DNA from: a virus
Length of the DNA: 58,355 nt
Direction: 5' to 3' (one strand)
Virus record (IMG/VR): IMGVR_UViG_3300036760_000091
Span: 1-58,355 of that record
Shown: in pieces, positions 2,457 through 40,326 of the stretch
Position numbering within the stretch: position 1 is the stretch's first letter
Layout: the number at the start of each line of letters is the position of its first letter
Made by a program: the position numbers and the translations under genes
Notes under the pieces: model-generated
The model's database searches: none
Told to the model about the DNA's origin: nothing
What the model saw: only the letters and a program-made list of their open reading frames with translations

Positions 2457-2575
2457 GGCGCTACAGCGTGCTCGGGTCGTTGGTGAAGGACTCGTACTGG
2501 CGCGCGTTCATCTACGGGCTGATCATCGGCGGGCTGGTGGTCGACCTCGCGCACAAGGTAGCGAGGTCATGGTGA
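2453..2575 (+). CDS. Small single-pass membrane protein (40 aa)
   Basis: GTG overlaps the preceding stop (GTGA). The product has one hydrophobic segment (AFIYGLIIGGLVVDLA) flanked by basic residues. It ends 7 bases after the start of the large-terminase gene. No family recognised. Confidence 0.5.
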   Translation: MRRYSVLGSLVKDSYWRAFIYGLIIGGLVVDLAHKVARSW

Positions 2576-3408
2576 CGTTGATCCCAGGCGTGCCGGACGC
2601 CGACATCCGCGAGTTATTCGCGCTCTACGAGAGCCTGACGGCCCGCGAAGGCTGCGCGTTCAACACCTACTTCCCGGACGCGGGACCGCTCCGCCGGGAG
2701 CTGTATCCGCGCTCGCTGCTGTTCTGGCTGGCCGGCACGCTCGACCGGGAGCGCATGATGATGGCCGCGAACCGGTGCAGCAAGACCGTGACAGCGGCCT
2801 TTGAGATGACCAGCCACCTGACGGGCCTGTACAAACCGTGGTGGCCGGGCCGGACGTTCGAGGGGCCGATCGAGGCGTGGGCAGCGGGCGACACGCTCGA
2901 AACGACGCGGGACATCATCCAGAACGAACTGTGCGGGCCTCGGCAGCTGGTGAAGGTCAAGCGGTTCGCCGGCATGATTCCGCCTCACCTGATTCTCGAT
3001 CGGTCGCTGAAGTCGGGCAGCGTGAGCGAGTGCATCGACACGCTGTGGATCAAGCACCGGGAGCGGCACCACGGTGCGCCGTGCACGTCGGTCCTCCAGT
3101 TCAAGGCGTTCAACCAGGGCCGGCTGTCGTTCCAGGGGACGAGCAAGCACCTGATCTGGCTGGACGAGGAACCGCCCGAAGCCGGGGACGAAGCGCCCGG
3201 CGGGGGTGGCACGCCGAGCGGGAACGGAGACGTGGTCACAGAGTGCCTGTTGCGGACGGCGACGACCAATGGCCTGCTGATGTTGACCCTGACGCCGCTG
3301 CGCGGGCTGACGCCGTTCCTGGAGAGCTGTCTCGAGCGCGGGGTGATGGTGGACGCGGACGGCGCGGTCATCAACGCGAAGGTCGGGATGTTTGGAGCAG
3401 CAGCATGA
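2569..3408 (+). CDS. Terminase large subunit, ATPase half (5' exon or fragment)
   Basis: Encodes the N-terminal ATPase domain of a P22-type large terminase. A Walker A-like segment NRCSKT is at residues 68-73; relatives I recall carry NRxGKT, so the Gly before the Lys is Ser here. HLTGLYKPWWPG follows, then Walker B LIWLDEE (195-201) and the coupling motif LTLTPLRGLTPF. The gene stops after 279 codons with the C-terminal nuclease domain missing; that half lies 3.3 kb downstream at 6710-7528. The stop is in an ATGA overlap with the next gene. Either this is the 5' exon of a spliced gene or the terminase is made as two polypeptides. Confidence 0.88.
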   Translation: MVTLIPGVPDADIRELFALYESLTAREGCAFNTYFPDAGPLRRELYPRSLLFWLAGTLDRERMMMAANRCSKTVTAAFEMTSHLTGLYKPWWPGRTFEGPIEAWAAGDTLETTRDIIQNELCGPRQLVKVKRFAGMIPPHLILDRSLKSGSVSECIDTLWIKHRERHHGAPCTSVLQFKAFNQGRLSFQGTSKHLIWLDEEPPEAGDEAPGGGGTPSGNGDVVTECLLRTATTNGLLMLTLTPLRGLTPFLESCLERGVMVDADGAVINAKVGMFGAAA

Positions 3409-3737
3409 GCACACAAGAAGAAGATTTCCAGCGGTTCTGTGAGGCCCTCCCTGCGCCGACGTGCGCGCCGAAGGACTGCACCCACCCGCAGCACGCCGCG
3501 TTTGTGGCGGTCAACCGGATGCTGGATAGCGGCCTGTTCTGCGCGGACGTCCGGATACGGTGCGTCGAGTGCGGCATCGACTTCCGGTTTACTGGTCTGC
3601 CCTCGGGCGTCCATCCGACGCAGCCGATGGTGTCGATCACGGGGACGGAACTCCGCGCGCCGATTGAGCCGGAAACCGAGACACGGCTCCACGAGACGGC
3701 CTCGTTCACCATGCCGGCCATCCCGACGAGGCACTGA
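3405..3737 (+). CDS. Putative zinc-binding protein (110 aa)
   Basis: ATG overlaps the terminase stop (ATGA). Contains CAPKDCTH near residue 22 and VRIRCVECG near residue 52, followed by FRFTGLPSG and ELRAPIEPE, a pattern I recall from small phage proteins without a name. The Cys and His residues could bind zinc. First gene of the insertion that splits the large terminase. Confidence 0.65.
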   Translation: MSTQEEDFQRFCEALPAPTCAPKDCTHPQHAAFVAVNRMLDSGLFCADVRIRCVECGIDFRFTGLPSGVHPTQPMVSITGTELRAPIEPETETRLHETASFTMPAIPTRH

Positions 3738-3739
3738 CA

Positions 3740-3964
3740 ATGACGACACCGTGGCCGATCGATAAGCAGTATCCGGGACAGCCGGAGCATGGCGACACCG
3801 TCCGGGTGCGTCCGCCCGGCCTCTACCCGCCGTTGCCGGCGGAACCGCGTCGAGTCGGCGGATGGAAGATCGCGCTCATCCTGTCGATCGGCCTACTGTC
3901 GGCCTTCGGCGCGGGTGTCGGCCTCGTGTGGCTCTGGGGTCGGTTCGTGATGTCCTGCTCATGA
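3740..3964 (+). CDS. Small membrane protein (74 aa)
   Basis: ATG two bases after the previous stop. A proline-rich N-terminal half (about 40 residues) is followed by one strong hydrophobic segment (IALILSIGLLSAFGAGVG to about residue 66), then a short tail. Likely an inner-membrane protein with its N-terminus in the cytoplasm. Family unknown. Confidence 0.6.
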   Translation: MTTPWPIDKQYPGQPEHGDTVRVRPPGLYPPLPAEPRRVGGWKIALILSIGLLSAFGAGVGLVWLWGRFVMSCS

Positions 3965-3992
3965 CCGGGCGTATACTGTCCAGCACTCCACA

Positions 3993-4376
3993 ATGAACCG
4001 CCGGCACTTTCTCCAGTCGCTGCTGGCCGTCCCGGCGCTGACGCTCGCCCTGGCCAAGAAGCCCGAGGCGGCGCTGTGTAAATGCGGGAAGCCGATGCCG
4101 GCCCACCTGGCGCGGCTGACGCCGGAGGACTTTCAGGCGCGCTACATCCGGCCGGCGGCGCTGGCGATTGCCGCCAAAATTGACGAAGACTGCCTGCGCG
4201 CGTATCTCGAAGTCAACCGGCAGATGGACGAGTGGTACGGCGAGCCGGTAGGCGGCTGGAACGCGCGGCCGGTCACGCTGCTACCGCCGCAGCCCGATCA
4301 GGTGTTCATCGCGTCCGGCGGGCGGGGCTACATCCTCACTGGCAGCGGTATGGGATTCTCGGAACTGGAGGCGTGA
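3993..4376 (+). CDS. Exported protein with twin-arginine signal peptide (127 aa)
   Basis: The N-terminus MNRRHFLQ followed by a hydrophobic stretch LLAVPALTLALA matches the Tat signal (RRxFL). After the signal comes CKCGKPMPAH, a Cys-rich stretch that could hold a metal or cofactor, which would explain export by Tat in a folded state, then a helical region and a Gly-rich C-terminus. TatA is encoded 0.7 kb downstream and a second Tat-signal protein at 4845. Substrate and activity unknown. Confidence 0.7.
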   Translation: MNRRHFLQSLLAVPALTLALAKKPEAALCKCGKPMPAHLARLTPEDFQARYIRPAALAIAAKIDEDCLRAYLEVNRQMDEWYGEPVGGWNARPVTLLPPQPDQVFIASGGRGYILTGSGMGFSELEA

Positions 4377-4537
4377 TGGCGAAGACACTACACCCGACGA
4401 TGCAGGCGCGCGCAGCGGCCACGAAGGCGGTCTACGCGGAGAAGCGGACCGACCCGAGCTTCATGGCGAAGTCCCCGCGTGAGCGGATCGGCATCGTCAG
4501 CCGGGAAGTCTCGAAGCGCGGCGGCGGCACGAAGTGA
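4376..4537 (+). CDS. Hypothetical basic protein (53 aa)
   Basis: ATG overlaps the previous stop (TGATG). Lysine/arginine-rich short helical protein ending in a Gly-rich tail; nothing recognised. Its stop overlaps the next GTG. Placement inside a coupled gene run is the main support. Confidence 0.5.
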   Translation: MAKTLHPTMQARAAATKAVYAEKRTDPSFMAKSPRERIGIVSREVSKRGGGTK

Positions 4538-4734
4538 AACCGCTCACGCCTGAAGGCCGGGTCATGCGGCTGGTGCGCCGGGTGGCGTACCGTCTCGTGG
4601 GGATCCGCGTCGGGCCGGCGATGCTCCAGATCCGTGGCGAGTGGATTTACATCGGCCCTTGCGGCAAGACATGGCGTGTCGTGCCCACAGGCGACGAGCA
4701 CTCTCCGCTGATGATCATGCTGGAGAAGTACTAA
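4534..4734 (+). CDS. Hypothetical protein (66 aa)
   Basis: GTG overlaps the previous stop. Basic N-terminal helix (GRVMRLVRRVAYRLVG) followed by a small beta-like part (IRGEWIYIGPCGKTWRVV). No family recognised. Confidence 0.5.
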   Translation: MKPLTPEGRVMRLVRRVAYRLVGIRVGPAMLQIRGEWIYIGPCGKTWRVVPTGDEHSPLMIMLEKY

Positions 4735-4807
4735 CCCAGACCCTCCGGGCTGCACGTCGAGGACGACGTGGAGCACCCTGCTTGTGGACTAGGCAAGGCC
4801 CGACCTC

Positions 4808-4824
4808 GGCGGGGTGCACCCGCC
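4808..4824 (+). other. Hairpin in the 110-base gap before the second Tat-signal gene
   Basis: GGCGGG (4808-4813) pairs with CCCGCC (4819-4824) around a 5-base loop. The gap 4735-4844 otherwise holds nothing I can recognise. The hairpin could separate the TatA sub-operon from the genes before it. Confidence 0.35.
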
Positions 4825-4844
4825 CGGCCCGGACGAACGAACCG

Positions 4845-5027
4845 ATGAACAGACGCCGCTTTCTCCACCTGTTGACGATGGCCGCTTCGGCGGTGGCGGT
4901 CAGTCCGTATTGGACGCCGACGCCGGAACTGGTCGAGCCGCTCCCTCCGCCGCCGGTCTATTCGGGCGACCCGTGGGTCTACGAATCCACCGTCACGCGC
5001 GTGGCCGCGATCGGGCCGACCAGATGA
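4845..5027 (+). CDS. Short exported protein with twin-arginine signal peptide (60 aa)
   Basis: ATG at 4845 gives MNRRRFLHLLTMAASAVAV, a second Tat signal (RRxFL) almost identical in its first eight residues to that of the 3993 gene. The mature part is only about 35 residues and proline-rich. It overlaps the next small frame and is 90 bases upstream of TatA, so signal protein and transporter component would be co-expressed. Confidence 0.65.
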   Translation: MNRRRFLHLLTMAASAVAVSPYWTPTPELVEPLPPPPVYSGDPWVYESTVTRVAAIGPTR

Positions 5028-5113
5028 TCGCCATCGAAGTCGGTGGCGGAGTGCTCTACAACGGGTCACGCAGCACCCGACGGTCAAGTTCTGCGAGAAA
5101 GCTGATTGTGTAG
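5024..5113 (+). CDS. Tiny ORF before tatA (29 aa)
   Basis: ATG overlaps the previous stop (ATGA). It runs to the base pair before tatA. In the tatA frame, the bases just upstream read TQHPTVKFCEKADC, which looks more protein-like than the 5024 frame in the same stretch, so a frameshift here is possible. Weakly supported. Confidence 0.3.
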   Translation: MIAIEVGGGVLYNGSRSTRRSSSARKLIV

Positions 5114-5115
5114 TC

Positions 5116-5292
5116 ATGCTCGGAAGCCTCGGAATGCCGGAACTGGTTGTCATCGCGGTCGTCGTGCTGCTCATCTTCGGACCGAAGAAGCTGCCCGGCC
5201 TCGCGCGCGGCCTCGGAGAGTCGATCAAGGAGTTCAAGAAGGCGGGGAAGGAACTTCAGGACACGGTGAACGAGGCCCATGACCGCGACTAG
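5116..5292 (+). CDS. tatA: TatA/E-type twin-arginine translocase subunit (58 aa)
   Basis: TatA forms the membrane pore-like assembly that moves folded proteins across the inner membrane after TatBC binds an RR signal. Residues 1-20 form the short transmembrane helix (GMPELVVIAVVVLLIF), followed by the diagnostic hinge FGPKKLPGLARGLG (21-34) and an amphipathic helix ESIKEFKKAGKELQD. All hallmarks are present: PEL, FGPKKLP, the Gly after the hinge and the lysine face. At 58 aa it is short but close to TatE-type lengths. Two Tat-signal proteins lie within 1.2 kb upstream. No TatB or TatC is in the window, so it would have to work with host TatBC. It overlaps the next gene by 14 bases. Confidence 0.9.
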   Translation: MLGSLGMPELVVIAVVVLLIFGPKKLPGLARGLGESIKEFKKAGKELQDTVNEAHDRD

Positions 5293-5590
5293 CTCCGGCC
5301 CGCTGTCGGAGGATGCGCGCACGGCGCTGCTGCTTGCGCAGGCTGCGCTGGAGAACGTCCATGAACCGCTCGACTCGAATGTGCTGGACGCGGTCAACGC
5401 CGTACTCGAGGCCGACAAGGCGCTGAAGGATCGCGTACATCCGGACCGCCGGCAGTTCTGGCTGATCCTGGATTGTTACCACTGGTACAAATGGACCGGG
5501 GACTCTCCCCATGCCAGCGAGTTGAAATGCCCAACGTGCGGAGCCGGCGCAACGGTCCTTGACCGTACCCCGGTGACGGAACGCCCATGA
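5279..5590 (+). CDS. Hypothetical protein with C-terminal CPTCG knuckle (103 aa)
   Basis: ATG lies inside the end of tatA. The N-terminal 55 residues are a helical Ala/Leu/Glu-rich segment; a WLILDCYHWYKW segment and CPTCG (one half of a zinc ribbon) follow. No family assigned. Confidence 0.6.
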   Translation: MTATSSGPLSEDARTALLLAQAALENVHEPLDSNVLDAVNAVLEADKALKDRVHPDRRQFWLILDCYHWYKWTGDSPHASELKCPTCGAGATVLDRTPVTERP

Positions 5591-5994
5591 GCCGACACAA
5601 CGCGAGCGACCCGTTCAAGGAACTGCCAAAGGCGTTCTGGATCGGGCAGACCATCAAGGCGATCATTGCCACGACCGGCCCGAACCATCGCTACATGATG
5701 TTCCGCGAGGGGTTCGTGCCCTTTCAAGACCGCATCCTGCCAGCGTTCAACAGCATCAACCCGTGCAAGTTCGACGCGAACGACGCGCGGACGATCTGGG
5801 AGGGCCTGAAGAAGTGGTCCGCCCGGCACGAGGCGCATCTCCAGATCTTCCTCGACCGGGCCTTTGAAGAGACGCGCCGCCGGAGCTGGAAACAGGCCGA
5901 CGAGCCGCTCGGGGACAACCACAACCCGGACATCGAGACGGACAGCGTGAAGCACGGGCACGCCTCGTTCGAGAAGGGACGGATGGTCCGATGA
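5587..5994 (+). CDS. Hypothetical protein (135 aa)
   Basis: ATG overlaps the preceding stop. Mixed alpha/beta sequence (AFWIGQTIKAIIATTG, then DANDARTIWEGLKKW) with a charged C-terminus. No motif I can name; it does not resemble homing endonucleases, which would be expected if the insertion were a mobile intron. Confidence 0.6.
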   Translation: MSRHNASDPFKELPKAFWIGQTIKAIIATTGPNHRYMMFREGFVPFQDRILPAFNSINPCKFDANDARTIWEGLKKWSARHEAHLQIFLDRAFEETRRRSWKQADEPLGDNHNPDIETDSVKHGHASFEKGRMVR

Positions 5995-6200
5995 CGCAAC
6001 CCACCGGCACGGCGCAAGGGCGCTGCGAGACGACCCAGACCGAGCGGTACGTCAACGCGGCCTGCACCTGCGACACGTACCCGGAGAACCTCGGCCCGTG
6101 CCTGCGCTTCGAGGAAGGCGAGCGTTCTGGGTTCTGCGTCTACTGCGATCACGGCGTGGGTTGTCATCAGCAATTGCTTCAAGCCGGGATCATTCCCTGA
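5991..6200 (+). CDS. Cys-rich hypothetical protein (69 aa)
   Basis: ATG overlaps the previous stop. Seven cysteines, including CTCDTYPENLGPC and CVYCDHGVGCH, suggest one or two zinc sites. Small nucleic-acid-binding protein is possible but unproven. Confidence 0.55.
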   Translation: MTQPTGTAQGRCETTQTERYVNAACTCDTYPENLGPCLRFEEGERSGFCVYCDHGVGCHQQLLQAGIIP

Positions 6201-6586
6201 TGGGTCGCAAAGCCCAAGCCAAGCGTGCGGAGAAGGCCACGAAGCCGAAGGGCCGCAAGACTGTCTCAGGGTCGAGGGACACCCGCGTCATGCAGCGACT
6301 GAAGAAGCTGATGCCGGAGATCACGACGAAGCACCAGGTGGAAGAGATGGTCGCGCAGTCGAGCAACCCGCGCGCGGCGCGGAAGCTCTATCTGCGCTTG
6401 CTCGGAGGGCGCTACGACGAGTTGCCCTGCTGCGGGAAGGCCGAACTGTGCCGCGTCCAGCACGCCGCGATCGAGCACGGCGACCGCTGTCCGGAGAAGG
6501 ACAAGCAGGTCGTGCTGCCGGATTCCGTCGACGGCCTTGCCGCCATGCGCTACGGCCGCGTCACCCGCGCGCTGGAGAGTCTGTAA
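6200..6586 (+). CDS. Hypothetical basic protein (128 aa)
   Basis: ATG overlaps the previous stop (TGATG). Lysine-rich N-terminus, a central helical region (LKKLMPEITTKHQVEEMV) and a CCGKAELC...C segment near residue 75 that could bind metal. Family unknown. Confidence 0.6.
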   Translation: MGRKAQAKRAEKATKPKGRKTVSGSRDTRVMQRLKKLMPEITTKHQVEEMVAQSSNPRAARKLYLRLLGGRYDELPCCGKAELCRVQHAAIEHGDRCPEKDKQVVLPDSVDGLAAMRYGRVTRALESL

Positions 6587-6709
6587 GTGGCGTTCAAGAC
6601 GAAGACCGCCGCGCGCGTCTACCACGCGAAGTGGCGGCAGTCGAACGGCACAGTGTCAAGAAGCGATATCGCAGAGTCGCTGATCGCGTATCTCATTGCG
6701 AGTAGGTGA
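6587..6709 (+). CDS. Small ORF in frame with the terminase nuclease half (40 aa)
   Basis: GTG directly follows the stop of the previous gene. It ends at TGA 6707-6709 and the very next in-frame codons are those of the terminase C-terminal half, so read-through of TGA (followed by C, a leaky context) would fuse the two. No family recognised. Confidence 0.4.
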   Translation: MAFKTKTAARVYHAKWRQSNGTVSRSDIAESLIAYLIASR

Positions 6710-6723
6710 CTTATCTTTATAAT
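6696..6723 (+). promoter_or_regulatory. Possible sigma70-type promoter before the nuclease half of terL
   Basis: TTGCGA (6696-6701), 16-base spacer, then a perfect TATAAT (6718-6723) inside an AT-rich patch that stands out in this GC-rich genome. It overlaps the first conserved codons of the terminase nuclease half, so it may equally be a coincidence or part of a splice-site structure. Confidence 0.4.
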
Positions 6724-7528
6724 CACGGCAAATTGGGACGACAATGCCCCACACCTTGACGCGAAGGCGCGCGCGGACCTGTGGGCGGCGATTCCGAATT
6801 ACCAGAAAGACGCGCGATCGAAGGGCATCCCGCAGTTGGGAGCCGGGGTCATCTACCCGATTCCCGACACGGACATCCTGGTCGATGCGTTCAAGATCCC
6901 GGACTTCTGGCCGCGCGGCTACGGCCTCGACATCGGCTGGAACAAGGTGGCGGTCATCTGGGACGCGATGGACCCGGACACGCTCGACAACGAGGGCGGA
7001 CCGACGATCTACCGGTACGACGAGCACTACGCGGGCGAGCAGCATCCGTCGATCCACGCGGAGGCTATCCGTCGACGCGGCGTCTGGATCCCCGGCGTCA
7101 TCGACCCGGCGGCGCGCGGCCGCACCCAGGACGACGGCAAGAAGCTGATTACGATCTGGCGCGCGGCCATCTACGGCGTCGAGGACATCTCGCTCGGCGT
7201 CCAGATGCTCGGCATCGCCAACAACGCGGTCGAGAGCGGCATCAGCCTCGAGTACACGGCTATGACGACGGGCCGGCTGAAGGTGTTCAAGAACCGCTGC
7301 CCGAACTGGATGGCGGAGCGCCGGCTGTATCGGCGCGATGAGCACGGCCGGATCGTGAAGAAGAACGACCACGCGCTCGACGCCGGCCGCTACCGGACCG
7401 CGTCCGGGACGGGGTACTTGAAGGCGAAGCCGGTGACGGCGCGGGAAGATCCCTTGTCGGCGTTTATGAGCGGCCATCGTGGTGGCTCTGGCAATAACGG
7501 GCAGATGCCCGGACTGGAGAATATCTGA
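6710..7528 (+). CDS. Terminase large subunit, nuclease half (3' exon or fragment)
   Basis: Open from just after TGA 6707-6709. It opens with TANWDDNAPHL and IPNYQKDARSKGIPQLGAG, the conserved linker of P22-like terminases, then the RNase H-fold nuclease: GLDIGW, VIDPAARGR and KNDHALDAGRYR carry the acidic residues that cut concatemeric DNA. There is no ATG or GTG upstream of the linker; the first standard start is TTG at 6836, after the linker. The conserved linker therefore can only be translated by splicing, stop read-through or an unusual start. It ends in an ATGA-type overlap with the portal gene. Confidence 0.85.
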   Translation, partial: LIFIITANWDDNAPHLDAKARADLWAAIPNYQKDARSKGIPQLGAGVIYPIPDTDILVDAFKIPDFWPRGYGLDIGWNKVAVIWDAMDPDTLDNEGGPTIYRYDEHYAGEQHPSIHAEAIRRRGVWIPGVIDPAARGRTQDDGKKLITIWRAAIYGVEDISLGVQMLGIANNAVESGISLEYTAMTTGRLKVFKNRCPNWMAERRLYRRDEHGRIVKKNDHALDAGRYRTASGTGYLKAKPVTAREDPLSAFMSGHRGGSGNNGQMPGLENI

Positions 7529-12225: not shown

Positions 12226-13449
12226 GTGGCTGATAACGACATTCTCACAGACGACGTCCTCGCCAAAGAGGCGCTGATGATCGTCGAGAACAACCTCGGC
12301 ATCACGAAGCTGATCAAGCGTCGATATGAAGGACGCTTCGCCCGTGAGGGCGGAAAGATTGGCGACCACATCGGCATCCGCAAGCCGGTTCAGTGGTCCG
12401 GTCGTGAAGGCGAAGTCATGGAGCCGGAGGGCGCGCAGGAACGCAGCGTCACCCTGAAGATCGACCATCTGATCGGTCAGGACCTCTCGTTCTCCAACGT
12501 GGACCTCACGCTGAAAATCGACATGTTCCGCGAACGGTATTTCGACACCGCTTGCGCGCGCATTGCGAACATGCTCGACCAGGCCGTCTGCCGGCAGTAC
12601 GTGAACATCCCGAACTACACCGGCGTCCCTGGCACGACCCCGACGACGTTGGACTCGTTCTTCGACGCCAGCGTCCTGATGTCGAACTTCGGCGTCCCCG
12701 GCCGTGGCCGGTCGATGGTCGTCTCGCCCCGCGTCGAGGCGTCGATCGTCAACGCTCTGAAGGGTCTGTTCCAGTCGGCCACCGCGCTCTCGAAGCAGTA
12801 CGAGACGGCGATGCTCGGCCATGTGATCGGCTTCGACTGGATCATGGACCAGAACATCAGCCTCCACACGATCGGCCTCCTCGGCGGCACCCCGCTGGTG
12901 ACGACGGCGAGCCAGAGCGGCTCGACCATCAACACGAACGGCTGGACGGCGACCACGGGCAAGGTCAAGCAGGGCGACATCGTCGGGTTCAGCGCGACCG
13001 ACGCCGTCAACCCGATGTCGAAGGATGACACCGGGGCGCTGCGCGGCTTCGTCGTGACCTCGGACACCACGGCGGACGGGTCGGGCAACATGACGATCCC
13101 GATCTTCCCGACGATGGAGTTCTCGGGGCCGTACCAGAACGTCAGCGCCCTGCCGGCGGCAAACGCGCCCGTGACGATCTTCGGATCGGCCTCGGCCTAC
13201 GCGAGCACCGCCACCAAGCAGAACCTGGCGATTCACACGGAGTGCATGACCGCCGCGTTCGTGGACCTGGACCTGCCGAAGGGCATGGCGATGGCCGCGC
13301 GCGCGAAGAGCAACAAACTCGGGCTGGCCATCCGGATCGTCAAGGGTTTCGACATCCGGACCAACCAGGAGCTGTGCCGTCTCGACGTGCTGTTCGGCCT
13401 CAAGGTCCTCTACGAGGACTTCGGATGCCGCGTGCAGTCGGCGCAGTAG
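12226..13449 (+). CDS. Major capsid protein, P22 coat family
   Basis: 407 aa with GTG start. N-terminal VLAKEALMIVENNLGITKLIKRRYEG, then a G-DHIGIRKP strand and an HLIGQDLSFSNVDLTL segment resemble the P22 coat (HK97 fold with an inserted domain). The central region DSFFDASVLMSNFGVPGRGR and the C-terminal GFDIRTNQELCRLDVLFGLK are also typical. It follows the scaffold by 11 bases and is followed by a strong hairpin. Confidence 0.88.
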   Translation: MADNDILTDDVLAKEALMIVENNLGITKLIKRRYEGRFAREGGKIGDHIGIRKPVQWSGREGEVMEPEGAQERSVTLKIDHLIGQDLSFSNVDLTLKIDMFRERYFDTACARIANMLDQAVCRQYVNIPNYTGVPGTTPTTLDSFFDASVLMSNFGVPGRGRSMVVSPRVEASIVNALKGLFQSATALSKQYETAMLGHVIGFDWIMDQNISLHTIGLLGGTPLVTTASQSGSTINTNGWTATTGKVKQGDIVGFSATDAVNPMSKDDTGALRGFVVTSDTTADGSGNMTIPIFPTMEFSGPYQNVSALPAANAPVTIFGSASAYASTATKQNLAIHTECMTAAFVDLDLPKGMAMAARAKSNKLGLAIRIVKGFDIRTNQELCRLDVLFGLKVLYEDFGCRVQSAQ

Positions 13450-13554: not shown

Positions 13555-14487
13555 GTGATGAAGCGCACCCGTTCGATCCTGCCGATGCTGCTGTTCGCCG
13601 TCATCTTCATGATGCTCGGTGCGCACGCGCACGCGCAGACGTTTCTGACCACAACCACGACGACCGCCGCCGTCACCAGCCGATCGCAGCAGCAGGTTCC
13701 GCTGACGTCCGTGACCGGCATGAACGTCAACGACTACCTCTGGTGGGACGGTGAGGTGTCGCAGGTTCAGGCGATCAACACGACCAGCAAGATCGTCACG
13801 CTGACGCGCGGGAAGCGCGGCCAGACACCCAACGACTCAATGGGTGCAGGCCGAGGCCACGCGAGCGGTGTCACCGTCCTCTACGGGCCAGTGAAGGCGT
13901 TCTATCTGGACGACGTCTCCGGCGCATGCACGGCCGCGAACGAACAATACATGCCTCACGTCGTCGTCACGTCCGGCCGCGTCTACGACTGCATCGGCTC
14001 GGTGTGGCAGGTCGTGCGCGACATCTTCGGCACGCCGGCTGAGACGCAGCTGGTCGACAATGCCTCGGTGGCGTCAGGCACCACGCAGTCGACGGACTAC
14101 ACGCTGAACTCCATCGTGATTCCGCAGGCGGAGTGGGCGCTGTCGCGCGGCATCTCGTGTCGCACCTGGGGGCAGTCCGCCACCAACGCGAACGCGAAGA
14201 CCTACAAGATGTTCTTCGGGGCGACGGCGGTGGCGACGGATGCGACTGGTTCCTACAACAACGTGTCGTATCTGGCGAGCCTCGACGTCCTGCGGACCGG
14301 CATCTCGACGCAGTTTGGCTCGGCAACGATCACCGGCACGCCCGGTGCGCCCACCGCCGGCCCCACCACGAACTCGGCGCTGGCGGAGGCGGAAACCGCC
14401 GCCATCACCATCAAGTTCACGTCGAACAACACCGCCGCTGCCGCCGCGTCTGCGACCGGCAAGGGCATGACCTGCTCGCTGTACTAG
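13555..14487 (+). CDS. Sec-exported protein 1 of 4 (310 aa)
   Basis: Starts GTG/ATG (13555 or 13558) after GGGGAGA. N-terminus MKRTRSILPMLLFAVIFMML then AHAHAQ is a complete Sec signal with an Ala-x-Ala cleavage site. The mature protein is beta-rich and Thr/Ser/Ala-rich; the C-terminal half resembles fibre or decoration-type domains, and cysteines occur near the end (TCSLY). First of four adjacent signal-peptide genes directly after the coat gene. Function unknown; an exported virion accessory or periplasmic protein are both possible. Confidence 0.75.
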   Translation: MMKRTRSILPMLLFAVIFMMLGAHAHAQTFLTTTTTTAAVTSRSQQQVPLTSVTGMNVNDYLWWDGEVSQVQAINTTSKIVTLTRGKRGQTPNDSMGAGRGHASGVTVLYGPVKAFYLDDVSGACTAANEQYMPHVVVTSGRVYDCIGSVWQVVRDIFGTPAETQLVDNASVASGTTQSTDYTLNSIVIPQAEWALSRGISCRTWGQSATNANAKTYKMFFGATAVATDATGSYNNVSYLASLDVLRTGISTQFGSATITGTPGAPTAGPTTNSALAEAETAAITIKFTSNNTAAAAASATGKGMTCSLY

Positions 14488-14497
14488 GGCTGACGCC

Positions 14498-14950
14498 ATG
14501 ACGCGCCTGATTCAACTCCTCGCCCTGCTCGGTCTGCCAGCGTTGGTGCTGGCCCAGAGCGCCTCTGGCTATCAGCAGCTGTCGATGTCGGACCTCGTGA
14601 CCCCGAGCACGATCAGTGCTGGCGTCACGCTGAACTCGACACGCTGCGAGGGGACGCTCGAGACGGCTAAAATCCGCGTGCTCTGGACAGGAGCCGTACC
14701 GACGACGACGTCGGGACAGCCGATGTATGTCGGGGACCGCATCACGCTCGCCAACGCGACGGACATCAGGAATTTCAAAGCCATCATCATGTCAGGCCAG
14801 TCCGGCTCATCCGTCGCCGTGCTGAACCTGACGTGCGCGGGCGGGACACTGGCGGAGCGGTCGTTCATTGCGCCCGCCACGTCTGCGTCGACGTCGGGCC
14901 TTCCGATCTGCAACCCGCTGTACAAAGCCGCTGGCGTCAGCTGCCAGTAA
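14498..14950 (+). CDS. Sec-exported protein 2 of 4 (150 aa)
   Basis: MTRLIQLLALLGLPALVLAQ is a Sec signal peptide. The mature part is about 130 residues, beta-rich, with Cys residues at about 54, 111, 137 and 149. It ends ICNPLYKAAGVSCQ, closely similar to the end of the 15500 protein, so the two are probably paralogues with a C-terminal disulphide. No named family. Confidence 0.7.
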   Translation: MTRLIQLLALLGLPALVLAQSASGYQQLSMSDLVTPSTISAGVTLNSTRCEGTLETAKIRVLWTGAVPTTTSGQPMYVGDRITLANATDIRNFKAIIMSGQSGSSVAVLNLTCAGGTLAERSFIAPATSASTSGLPICNPLYKAAGVSCQ

Positions 14951-14982
14951 AGACAACTTCTTTCGCATAAGGGAGACTGGAA

Positions 14983-15471
14983 ATGTTCCGAAACCTGAAG
15001 ATCGCCGCCGTCCTCGCCGCGCTGCTCATGCTCGCGGTTCCCATTCACGCGCAGAATCCGTCCGGGATCGCCGGCTCGGTGCCCACGCAGGCGGGATCTC
15101 CTGCGTATTCGCTGACCGCCATCAGCTCGACGGCGGCGGTGAACAACCAGGTCACACTGACCATCCCCGCGCCGACCGCGTCCGGGTACTACAACTATAT
15201 CTGCTACTTGGGCTACAACGCCTCGCAGGACGGCACGGCCACGGCGCAGACGAATGCCGTGACGACCAGCACGAACTTCAACGCGTTCGCGCTGAAGTAC
15301 AGCCTGACGGCGACGGCGACCATCAACTACGCCCGCGACTTCTACTGGGGGAACCCGGCGACGGGGTGTGTGAAGAGCGCCGCGCCGACGACGTCGACGA
15401 CCTTCGTGTCGCCGGCTGCGGGTGCGAACATCGCCTTCACCTGGCAGGCGACATATTACCAAGCGCCATAA
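14983..15471 (+). CDS. Sec-exported protein 3 of 4 (162 aa)
   Basis: Good ribosome-binding site (AAGGGAGA). MFRNLKIAAVLAALLMLAV followed by PIHAQ is a Sec signal. The mature protein is a Thr/Ala/Ser-rich predicted beta sandwich with two cysteines (YICYLGY and GCVKS), suggesting a disulphide outside the cytoplasm. Family unknown. Confidence 0.7.
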   Translation: MFRNLKIAAVLAALLMLAVPIHAQNPSGIAGSVPTQAGSPAYSLTAISSTAAVNNQVTLTIPAPTASGYYNYICYLGYNASQDGTATAQTNAVTTSTNFNAFALKYSLTATATINYARDFYWGNPATGCVKSAAPTTSTTFVSPAAGANIAFTWQATYYQAP

Positions 15472-15499
15472 ATTCAGTTAATTCAGACACTTAACTGGC

Positions 15500-15979
15500 A
15501 TGACGCCGTTCCGCGTGCTGCTCGCGCTGGTCCTGCTCGGCCTTCTGGTCGCGCCGGTCCGCGCGCAGCAGCCGGTTACGACCCAGACTCTCACCGTCAC
15601 GGCCACCACGGCCGTAGGGCTGTCCACGACGACGATCAGCCCTGCCGGCGCGCCGGCAGTAGGCAATTGTCAGGGGCAGGTCCAGGGCGGCTCCGTGCTG
15701 GTCTGGGCGACGGGGGCGACTCCGGCGGTCGCCAGCGGGAGCACGCCAGCCTCGGGCTTCTGGCTGAACCCAGGGTCCTTGTTCTGGCTGACGTCGTTCA
15801 TCGCGTCCAAGCAGTTTCTTGCCGTGGCCGTCGGGGCGACCGCCACGATTCAGTTTCAATGCGCGCGCGGCGCGGACATGTCCGGGTCGCTCCCTCCGTT
15901 GGTGGTGAATTACGACCCCGGCACGGTGGGCGTCTCGTCCTGTAACGCGCTGCTCAAAGCATCCGGCTACTGCCGGTAG
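15500..15979 (+). CDS. Sec-exported protein 4 of 4 (159 aa)
   Basis: MTPFRVLLALVLLGLLVAPV then RAQQ is a Sec signal with cleavage after RAQ. The mature domain is beta-rich with Cys near residues 56, 123, 148 and 157, and ends SCNALLKASGYCR, matching the 14498 protein. Its stop lies 10 bases before the next GTG. Confidence 0.7.
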   Translation: MTPFRVLLALVLLGLLVAPVRAQQPVTTQTLTVTATTAVGLSTTTISPAGAPAVGNCQGQVQGGSVLVWATGATPAVASGSTPASGFWLNPGSLFWLTSFIASKQFLAVAVGATATIQFQCARGADMSGSLPPLVVNYDPGTVGVSSCNALLKASGYCR

Positions 15980-38240: not shown

Positions 38241-38740
38241 GCAAAGATCATCGGTGGCTGGAAATCGACGCGCGCGGGATGGCGTTTCACGAGCGGTTTC
38301 TCCCGGAAGGTGTTGAACCGCCGGCTGAAGTCTTCTACTGCGACTGCAACGGCGTTGGCCGAGAGTCCTGGAATCCGCATGTGCCGCTGTCGGTCGCTCT
38401 CACACCAGAAGAGCAGGCCGTCGCCCCCTGTCAAGTGTGCGGAAAAGATAGGAACGATCTCGATCACAAGGCCGACGGCCTCGTCGGGCATACATACGTT
38501 CCACCAGTTGAGCGGGTGCAGACCGCCGACGAGTGGAAGGCGGAGCACGCGGCGGCTGAGGACGGCTGCGTCGTCAGGCGGCAGATCTTTGTCGATGTCA
38601 CTGACCTGAAAGTCCGCAAAGCGGCTCGTGGTATGGCGTACGACGAGAAGACGGCGACCTTCTCGGTGCCAGAAGGATTTGTCTTCAACGCCAACGACGG
38701 GGCGTACGTTCCGGCTCCGATAGCCTCGGCTCGCGGATGA
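38237..38740 (+). CDS. Hypothetical protein with Cys pairs (167 aa)
   Basis: ATG overlaps the previous stop. CDCNGVG and CQVCGK could form a zinc site. The rest is mixed alpha/beta without a known family. Confidence 0.55.
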   Translation: MSKDHRWLEIDARGMAFHERFLPEGVEPPAEVFYCDCNGVGRESWNPHVPLSVALTPEEQAVAPCQVCGKDRNDLDHKADGLVGHTYVPPVERVQTADEWKAEHAAAEDGCVVRRQIFVDVTDLKVRKAARGMAYDEKTATFSVPEGFVFNANDGAYVPAPIASARG

Positions 38741-39090
38741 TCCCAACGATGACGCCTACTGACGGCTCCCCTGCCGGCGAACCGTCGCGGGCATCAGGCC
38801 AGTGGTGGATTGAGGTCTTGCTGAAACTCACGTTGCAGCACGGCATCCCGATGGTCGTCGCGTTGATTCTTGGCGGAATCATCTTGTGGTGGTCGAACGG
38901 GGTCATCGCCTCGATGGCAAAGGAAGTCTCAGGGACGAAGATCGCCTTAGAGCAGCATCAGCAATTGATGCTGCTGGACGCGGCGTCGGCCAAGGAAGCC
39001 CGCGAACGCGAGATCCGGATTCTCGAGCTGCTGTGTCAGAGCATGGCGAAGAGTGACGCCATGCGGATCGCCTGCGGAGGCGGCAAGTAG
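38737..39090 (+). CDS. Membrane protein with C-terminal coiled coil, lysis-cassette candidate (117 aa)
   Basis: One strong membrane segment (IPMVVALILGGIILWW) then a charged helix (ALEQHQQLMLLDAASAKEARE). The topology fits a holin or an inner-membrane spanin. It lies immediately before a peptidoglycan-enzyme gene. ATG at 38749 is an alternative start. Confidence 0.6.
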   Translation: MIPTMTPTDGSPAGEPSRASGQWWIEVLLKLTLQHGIPMVVALILGGIILWWSNGVIASMAKEVSGTKIALEQHQQLMLLDAASAKEAREREIRILELLCQSMAKSDAMRIACGGGK

Positions 39091-39473
39091 TGTTCTTTTA
39101 TCGGCAAGGCACCGGGGAACTCTTCGACGAGGATACCCTTATCTCGACCGGCTATTCCGGGCATGGCGAAGGGAAGAACAACACGGAGATGCAGGATCGG
39201 CACGACGTCGGCCCCCTCCCGTGCGGCGTCTGGACGATGCACCGCGCCGAGCATGTCGATGCCCCAGGCCCGCACGGGCCGTTCACGCTTCGTCTGACCC
39301 CGAACGAAGGGACAGACACCTTCGGTCGAGACAGCTTCCTCTGCCACGGGGACTCAAAGGAGCACCCAGGCGACGCCTCGCTCGGCTGCATGATTCAGGC
39401 GCGCAAGATTCGGGAACGGCTCGATGCAGCGGTCGAGGCTGGCGATGACCAGTTGACGGTGACAGCGGAATGA
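39090..39473 (+). CDS. DUF2778/Tlde1-like peptidoglycan enzyme, probable endolysin (127 aa)
   Basis: GYSGHGEGKNNTEMQ, VGPLPCGVW, GPFTLRLTP, LCHGDSKEHPGDASLGCM: this is the DUF2778 pattern with catalytic His (HGDS) and Cys (SLGC) of L,D-transpeptidase-type enzymes. Tlde1 members cut or exchange peptide bonds in peptidoglycan. No signal peptide, so it would need a holin, and membrane proteins lie on both sides. GTG overlaps the preceding TAG. Confidence 0.75.
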   Translation: MFFYRQGTGELFDEDTLISTGYSGHGEGKNNTEMQDRHDVGPLPCGVWTMHRAEHVDAPGPHGPFTLRLTPNEGTDTFGRDSFLCHGDSKEHPGDASLGCMIQARKIRERLDAAVEAGDDQLTVTAE

Positions 39474-39649
39474 GCAAACCACAACACCCGCCGACGATTG
39501 CCGGCGTACCGGTCGACGTGGTCTTGAAGGTGGGTGCCGCGATCATCGCGGGCGCAGTGTGGCTTGGGATTCTCGAATATCGGGTTCAGCAGCTAGAATC
39601 ACACGACACCTACTACCACGGCACCCTCAAGAAGGGACAGGAGCACTGA
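39470..39649 (+). CDS. Small membrane protein in lysis cassette (59 aa)
   Basis: ATG overlaps the previous stop. One membrane segment (VLKVGAAIIAGAVWLGILE) then a hydrophilic tail (YRVQQLESHDTYYHG). Possible holin, antiholin or small spanin. Confidence 0.55.
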   Translation: MSKPQHPPTIAGVPVDVVLKVGAAIIAGAVWLGILEYRVQQLESHDTYYHGTLKKGQEH

Positions 39650-39651
39650 AC

Positions 39652-40326
39652 ATGTTCAATCTGACAACCGAACAGACGCACGCCGTCGCGGTGCGCGCAG
39701 GCGGCGCGGTGCGCGCCTTCGCCACCCTCGCGGTCGCCTACGCGGTGCAGAAGCACTGGATTCCTGGTAGCGGGCTCCTCTCCGGCTGGCTCGGTGACCA
39801 GCTGGCCGCCGAGCTGGCGATGGCCGTGACGGCCGGCGGCATGTTCGCGTGGAGCTGGATCAACAAGAACAAAGATCGGAATCGGCTACTCGCCGCGATC
39901 GCGGCCGATCCGACCGCCGCGACGACCCTCGACACGTTTCTGAGCGACTTCAAGGCGTCGACGAAGACGCAGGCTCGCGTGACCGGCGGGACTGGACCGA
40001 TGCAACTGGTCCTCGTCCTGGTGTTGCTCGGCGCGATGACATCGTGTGTGCGAGTACATCTCCCCCGGCTGCCTGATGGCTCGCTCGACGTCCGCAGGCT
40101 GGTGACGTGGGCAAGTGACGGCGTGGAAGCCGACTGTCAGTTTCAACCCACGGCGGCGTTTTGTATCTTCGGTCGTGATGCCGTGGCGGACGCGCGCGCC
40201 GCGATGGATCGGAATCCGGCGGCGCTACAGGTCGCAGCTCGGCGGTCGCTGGTGGACAGCGCGGCGAAGTGGCCGGTGATTCAGCCGTGGGTGCAGTGGC
40301 TCGTTGACGGCCTCACCACATCGTGA
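39652..40326 (+). CDS. Holin-like protein with internal lipoprotein-type start (224 aa)
   Basis: Residues 20-75 contain two membrane segments (AVRAFATLAVAYAVQ; ELAMAVTAGGMFAWSWI) followed by a basic stretch, as in many phage holins. An in-frame ATG at 40000 gives MQLVLVLVLLGAMTSC, a lipoprotein signal with lipobox-like Cys, so a separate outer-membrane lipoprotein (as in Rz1-type spanins) may be made from the same frame. Confidence 0.6.
   Translation: MFNLTTEQTHAVAVRAGGAVRAFATLAVAYAVQKHWIPGSGLLSGWLGDQLAAELAMAVTAGGMFAWSWINKNKDRNRLLAAIAADPTAATTLDTFLSDFKASTKTQARVTGGTGPMQLVLVLVLLGAMTSCVRVHLPRLPDGSLDVRRLVTWASDGVEADCQFQPTAAFCIFGRDAVADARAAMDRNPAALQVAARRSLVDSAAKWPVIQPWVQWLVDGLTTS

Follow-up and report, generated by a model that had tools for sequence, protein, structure and literature searches.

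The window analysed here, the whole stretch of a virus record at its full length of 58,355 bases, carries within a split terminase gene a small reading frame that is, by family score, a genuine tatA, together with two open reading frames whose N-termini resemble Tat signals. TatA belongs to the bacterial apparatus by which folded proteins cross the membrane. We consider a phage-encoded Tat accessory module to be the best explanation of this arrangement, and a probable one. In such a module, the phage would make extra TatA during infection, this TatA would join the TatC-containing translocase of the host, and the membrane insertion or export of small twin-arginine-signal phage proteins encoded in the same run would thereby be supported. 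The same pairing of TatA with Tat-signal proteins recurs in other virus genomes, and it is this recurrence, found with TatA alone as bait, together with the identity of TatA, the Tat-like signals and their adjacency, that makes a phage-supplied Tat route the best explanation.

The tatA product shows the TatA/E layout claimed in the preliminary description of this DNA, namely a short transmembrane helix, an FGPKKLP hinge and an amphipathic lysine-rich helix, and lacks a long C-terminal tail. Family models bear this out, with scores over their curated cut-offs for PF02416 TatA_B_E (77.4 bits, E 4.8e-22; Pfam cut-off 21), TIGR01411 tatAE (71.9 bits; NCBIfam cut-off 53.9) and NF011430 (75.4 bits; NCBIfam cut-off 62), while the NCBIfam TatB model reaches 41.9, under its cut-off of 56.5. 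A family search of G000 recovers tatA again. Eight positions (I13, F21, G22, K25, L26, P27, G34 and K41) are invariant in an alignment of phage and bacterial TatA, and the GC content by codon position in tatA (0.69/0.32/0.85) has the pattern of the phage's own genes. The closest bacterial TatA proteins are 44–62% identical to it (at most about 57–62%) and are scattered over Thermus, Nitrospirota, Aminicenantes, Poribacteria, Bacillota, Cyanobacteria and Acidobacteriota; a TatA tree of 55 columns does not resolve, so that neither a single bacterial donor nor the number of phage acquisitions can be read from it. Phage TatA thus shares the conserved core of bacterial TatA/TatE (PF02416, TIGR01411) and scores as TatA rather than TatB. 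In contrast to the bacterial proteins, the phage versions are only 45–69 aa long without the long tail, their genomes have no TatC, and their genes adjoin Tat-signal ORFs instead of tatC.

Features of the window around tatA, and the lysis-like region, with coordinates as window positions
Feature	Position	Strand	Basis and remarks
Terminase large subunit, ATPase half, upstream border	2569..3408	+	Terminase_6N 20.1 bits; phrog_31467 E 7.8e-52
74-aa ORF, one predicted membrane helix	3740..3964	+	ORF list; same run
c1, Tat-signal ORF	3993..4376	+	127 aa; starts MNRRHFLQSLLAVPALTLALA, MNRRHFL
Two small overlapping ORFs between c1 and c2	4376-4537, 4534-4734	+	ORF list
c2, Tat-signal ORF	4845..5027	+	60 aa; starts MNRRRFLHLLTMAASAVAVS, MNRRRFL
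Putative 29-codon ORF joining c2 to tatA	5024..5113	+	Sequence
tatA	5116..5292	+	58 aa; sequence MLGSLGMPELVVIAVVVLLIFGPKKLPGLARGLGESIKEFKKAGKELQDTVNEAHDRD
Downstream coupled ORFs	5279-5590, 5587-5994, 5991-6200	+	ATG overlaps preceding stop
Terminase large subunit, nuclease half, downstream border	6722..7528	+	phrog_5653 E 5.8e-18
Lysis-like region	38737..40326	+	One-helix ORF 38737, Tlde1-domain protein 39090, weakly holin-like ORF 39559

The genomic setting is that of a phage, with a P22-like portal (phrog_156), a major head protein (phrog_283; the phage's own MCP, 12226-13449), a DnaB helicase and an Erf recombinase. The tatA cassette sits in a 3.3-kb gap that splits the terminase large-subunit gene (window 2569-7528), whose two halves were placed by alignment to the intact TerL of EBPR podovirus 1; homology of the nuclease half runs from 6722 on, with no usual start codon before the first in-frame TTG at 6836. 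In phage ct2G2228 (MW202785), TerL is split at the same place, by about 130 bp. TerL gave no match in Rfam, even at E 10, and an intron of group I or II in the gene is thus unsupported, although the nuclease half does lack an obvious start codon. By eye, the large terminase protein of ctRVW222 (L128 6998-8869) seems to hold an intein near its C-terminus. Host contamination as the source of tatA is ruled out by its position between terminase halves, by the P22-like portal and head protein of the record and by the four further virus records described below. Within the cassette, the preliminary description had seen one coupled run. Several starts do overlap the preceding stop, and the 29-codon ORF joins c2 by an ATGA overlap and leads into tatA by its stop, 2 nt and ATG, but a single gap of 110 nt (4735-4844) precedes c2. 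The product of the ORF at 3740 has no Pfam family match, and the two small ORFs between c1 and c2 have no convincing match in Pfam or PHROGs. No tRNA was found in the window, and no close IMG/VR relatives of its portal or of c1. When its MCP was compared with 396 genomes of one phylum, with an Acidobacteriota genome as centre, one full-length match at 36% was obtained, and the stretch read of that contig has no TatA. After the head protein gene, four consecutive ORFs (13558-15979) carry ordinary Sec-like signal peptides, which is unusual among structural genes.

Both ORFs upstream of tatA begin, as had been noticed, with a Tat-like N-terminus within 1.2 kb of it; a rule-based scan confirms the twin-arginine motif followed by a hydrophobic stretch, as RRHFL in c1 and RRRFL in c2. 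The signal of c2 exceeds the NCBIfam cut-off for TIGR01409 TAT_signal (19.0 bits against 16.7); that of c1 scores 16.7 bits with PF10518 TAT_signal, under the Pfam cut-off of 22.7. On both strands of the 58-kb window, c1 and c2 are the only convincing Tat-signal ORFs, the one further match of the scan being a 45-aa minus-strand ORF within a large gene. In eight random sequences from a first-order Markov model, there were 0, 3, 0, 0, 0, 1, 0 and 0 matches. Like bacterial Tat substrates (TIGR01409, PF10518), the two proteins have MNRRxFL, a hydrophobic stretch and an Ala-rich end. The bodies of the phage cargos differ from those substrates in having no known enzyme domain, and in three of them there are capsid-protein-like segments. 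An AlphaFold model of c1 alone has a pLDDT of 43, too low to use.

Searching other phage genomes, as the preliminary description had proposed, uncovered the pairing again. In IMG/VR, scans for which TatA was the sole bait gave four further virus records with a genuine TatA, representing three further lineages: G001 (locus L002, 100.9 kb), its sister G003 (L136, 103.4 kb), G002 (L134, 48.3 kb) and G004 (L153, 55.7 kb), the last a fragment with no recognised structural gene. Pfam TatA scores are 69.1 bits for L002, 67.2 for L136 and 57.5 for L134; the TatA of L153 is shorter and reaches 45.3, under the NCBIfam cut-off of 53.9. A same-strand Tat-signal ORF lies beside tatA in all four. In G001 and G003, the cargo genes, whose products start MNRRKFLQLAGLTGGG and MNRRRFLQLAAGAG, overlap the tatA stop by 4 nt (AAGTGA...). 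The G002 cargo (SRRDILRGAGIFGALAAVLS) is 26 nt downstream of tatA, with the terminase next, and that of G004 (MNRRLFLAGTAAGVGALTLPALA) also lies downstream, separated from tatA by one small ORF that is coupled at either end. In G002, another Tat-signal ORF closely precedes the portal gene, and TatA is the only protein that this genome has in common with the window (E<1e-4). TatA genes in "phage" records of Staphylococcus, Listeria, Salmonella, Acinetobacter and human-gut contigs look bacterial and were left uncounted: tatC adjoins tatA where such records were examined (L004, L158), and the others are annotated as tatA/tatE on large contigs. Phage-labelled records with a bacterial-type tatA include OR849886, OR848119, OR846728, MT835496 and MT837480, of which the last two look like bacterial contigs because tatC adjoins tatA.

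How readily could such a pairing arise by chance? The same scan on 525 kb of other viral DNA gave eight matches, mostly spurious, and the probability of a same-strand Tat-signal match within 1.3 kb is about 0.02 per locus. Over the four lineages this amounts to P of about 1.5e-7, or about 8e-6 without the window itself, an estimate that comes from few lineages, a simple rule and a small background sample. Among 80 bacterial loci with a similar TatA, none had, by the same filter, a Tat-signal cargo neighbour; nearby matches were present at five of them, and all five are the N-terminus of TatC itself.

None of the five phage records contains TatC (PF00902), in a search whose controls were positive in 11 of 14 cases, and any export must thus use the TatC of the host. 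The phage-controlled Tat route proposed earlier is upheld as regards TatA, the signals, their adjacency and its recurrence, but the phage would not control it on its own, since host TatC is needed. Experiments with mixed translocases in E. coli identify TatA as the Tat subunit with the best chance of functioning in another species (PMC1550398), which would explain why the phage carries only TatA. We infer that the phage TatA is functional, that it would work with host TatC and that both c1 and c2 would be exported by Tat. Several points weigh against such a module. The signal of c1 misses its Pfam cut-off, and the NCBIfam cut-off is narrowly missed by the signals of L002, L136 and L153. Tat cargos are usually folded, often with cofactors; c2 has only 60 residues, and no enzyme fold can be recognised in c1. 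The phage can use the TatA of its host, which leaves the need for a copy of its own unexplained. Tunturiibacter phage Tunturi_3, an isolated Acidobacteriota phage, has an ORF of 170 aa whose Tat-type signal is clear (gp49, L126 27138-27650; MNRRQLFKGAAALVAATVLPLPALA), and the absence of any tatA found in Tunturi_3 despite this ORF likewise counts against it.

These points have to be set against what other readings of the locus would leave unexplained. The preliminary description had itself offered one of them, that TatA is a holin-like helix which weakens the membrane, in lysis or in collapse of the membrane potential, rather than a part of Tat export. Holins do share the plan of a short membrane helix with an amphipathic helix after it, and another ORF with a single helix (3740) lies in the same run. 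TpeE-type holins in particular share with phage TatA this general plan and a proposed mechanism, a weakening of the membrane similar to that by TatA, though the review that proposes this regards the two as unrelated (PMC9527704), and the tatA product of the window is TatA by family score. This reading keeps some weight through the similar weakening of membranes that has been proposed for TatA and some holins. On the other hand, a lysis-like region apart from tatA is present in the phage, and the recurrent pairing with Tat-signal ORFs, seen beside tatA in all five records, would not be expected of a holin; both weaken the reading. The only Pfam match of the product is to TatA, the conservation specific to Tat is kept in its sequence, and no endolysin-like gene was recognised beside tatA in the window. 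We consequently regard a holin-like role as quite improbable. In the lysis-like region itself, the scores are 38.1 bits for PF10908 (cut-off 30.1) and 18.3 bits, under the cut-off, for PF23987; the Tlde1-domain protein (39090-39473), of L,D-transpeptidase type, lies between two membrane ORFs at the place where an endolysin would be expected.

The remaining readings concern the neighbours of tatA as much as tatA itself. The module might disable or divert host Tat, with extra TatA and short signal peptides competing in the translocase, for example to block host export or to exclude other phages. The small size of the cargos and their dissimilarity from one lineage to the next would fit, as would the lack of TatC and the build of c2, hardly more than a signal peptide followed by 40 residues. 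However, the other cargos have 98–239 aa with composed bodies, their capsid-like segments would be left unexplained, and surplus TatA is expected to aid transport rather than to hinder it; such diversion thus appears unlikely. It is also conceivable that tatA is a captured passenger gene (moron) unlinked to its neighbours, whose RR-hydrophobic N-termini would be Sec-type signals or membrane anchors. The cassette does lie in a terminase gap, where a related phage has a stretch that resembles, by eye, a homing-endonuclease remnant, and four ORFs elsewhere in the phage have ordinary Sec-like signals. A passenger would not account for a pairing found in four lineages with TatA alone as bait, at the chance level given above, nor for MNRRxFL starts that follow the consensus beyond merely charged N-termini, nor for tatA and cargo genes that overlap by 4 nt, and we hold it to be very doubtful.

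A finding that the preliminary description had not foreseen is the capsid-protein-like segments of three cargos, strong in two (G001 and G003) and weaker in c1. Over 45 residues, the cargo of G001 can be aligned with the Tunturi_3 major head protein at a score of 94 (shuffled sequences 30.7 +/- 4.7, none of 1000 as good), and the latter protein, used as query on G001, retrieves the cargo (48% over 46 aa, E 1.1e-5) as well as the head protein of G001 itself. The G003 cargo matches the phrog_1357 major head protein, the family of G003's own head protein, at E 0.0024; a second segment matches elsewhere at E 4.6e-5, and the two segments are in reverse order relative to the head protein. For c1, the match to phrog_283, its own head-protein family, is weak (E 0.077), while an HMM of five P22-type coats matches residues 44-73 to coat residues 97-127, in the spine-helix region (E 1.1e-5; none of 2000 shuffles as good), so that a short capsid-like match is probable. 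No such segment was found in the cargos of G002 (L134) or G004 (L153). The three proteins are not capsid proteins: whereas P22-type and phrog_1357 head proteins are resembled by short segments in c1, the G001 (L002) cargo and the G003 (L136) cargo, these cargos carry only that segment, or two permuted ones in L136, behind a Tat signal, and only about 30 residues of c1 match, not a full-length HK97 fold. In G001, the head protein gene (L124 6745-7896) has an extra stretch that looks, by eye, like a translated group I intron, and the head protein gene of G003, where the contig ends, is interrupted at about the same place.

The presence of capsid-like segments in the cargos of three phages is a hint that their role has to do with the capsid; the segment could be a membrane tether for capsid protein, a decoy or a re-used stable helix. 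One could go further and suppose that several unrelated phages have in their Tat cargo, behind the signal, a portion of their own capsid protein. TatA together with host TatC would then deliver a capsid-like helix to the periplasm or the membrane, where it might, for instance, hold or catch capsid protein at the membrane or present a capsid decoy. This idea is tentative, and we think it rather unlikely.

TatA itself is well known. What is new, relative to the open-access literature that was searched, is a viral module of TatA and cargo; no precedent for a phage TatA with Tat substrates was found there, and the preliminary description likewise knew of no described phage module of this kind. No genuine TatA was found in annotated phage genomes, and the words phage and virus are absent from a 2026 Tat review. 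Tailed phages use host Sec for some of their proteins. The findings presented here, drawn from sequence comparison, suggest that some phages supply part of the host export machine for proteins of their own. If this is true, it would raise the question of why proteins with capsid-like segments would reach the membrane or the periplasm, and compact natural TatA variants of 45–69 aa would be on offer. More broadly, some phages would then manage the export of folded proteins themselves, through the subunit that works most readily across species.
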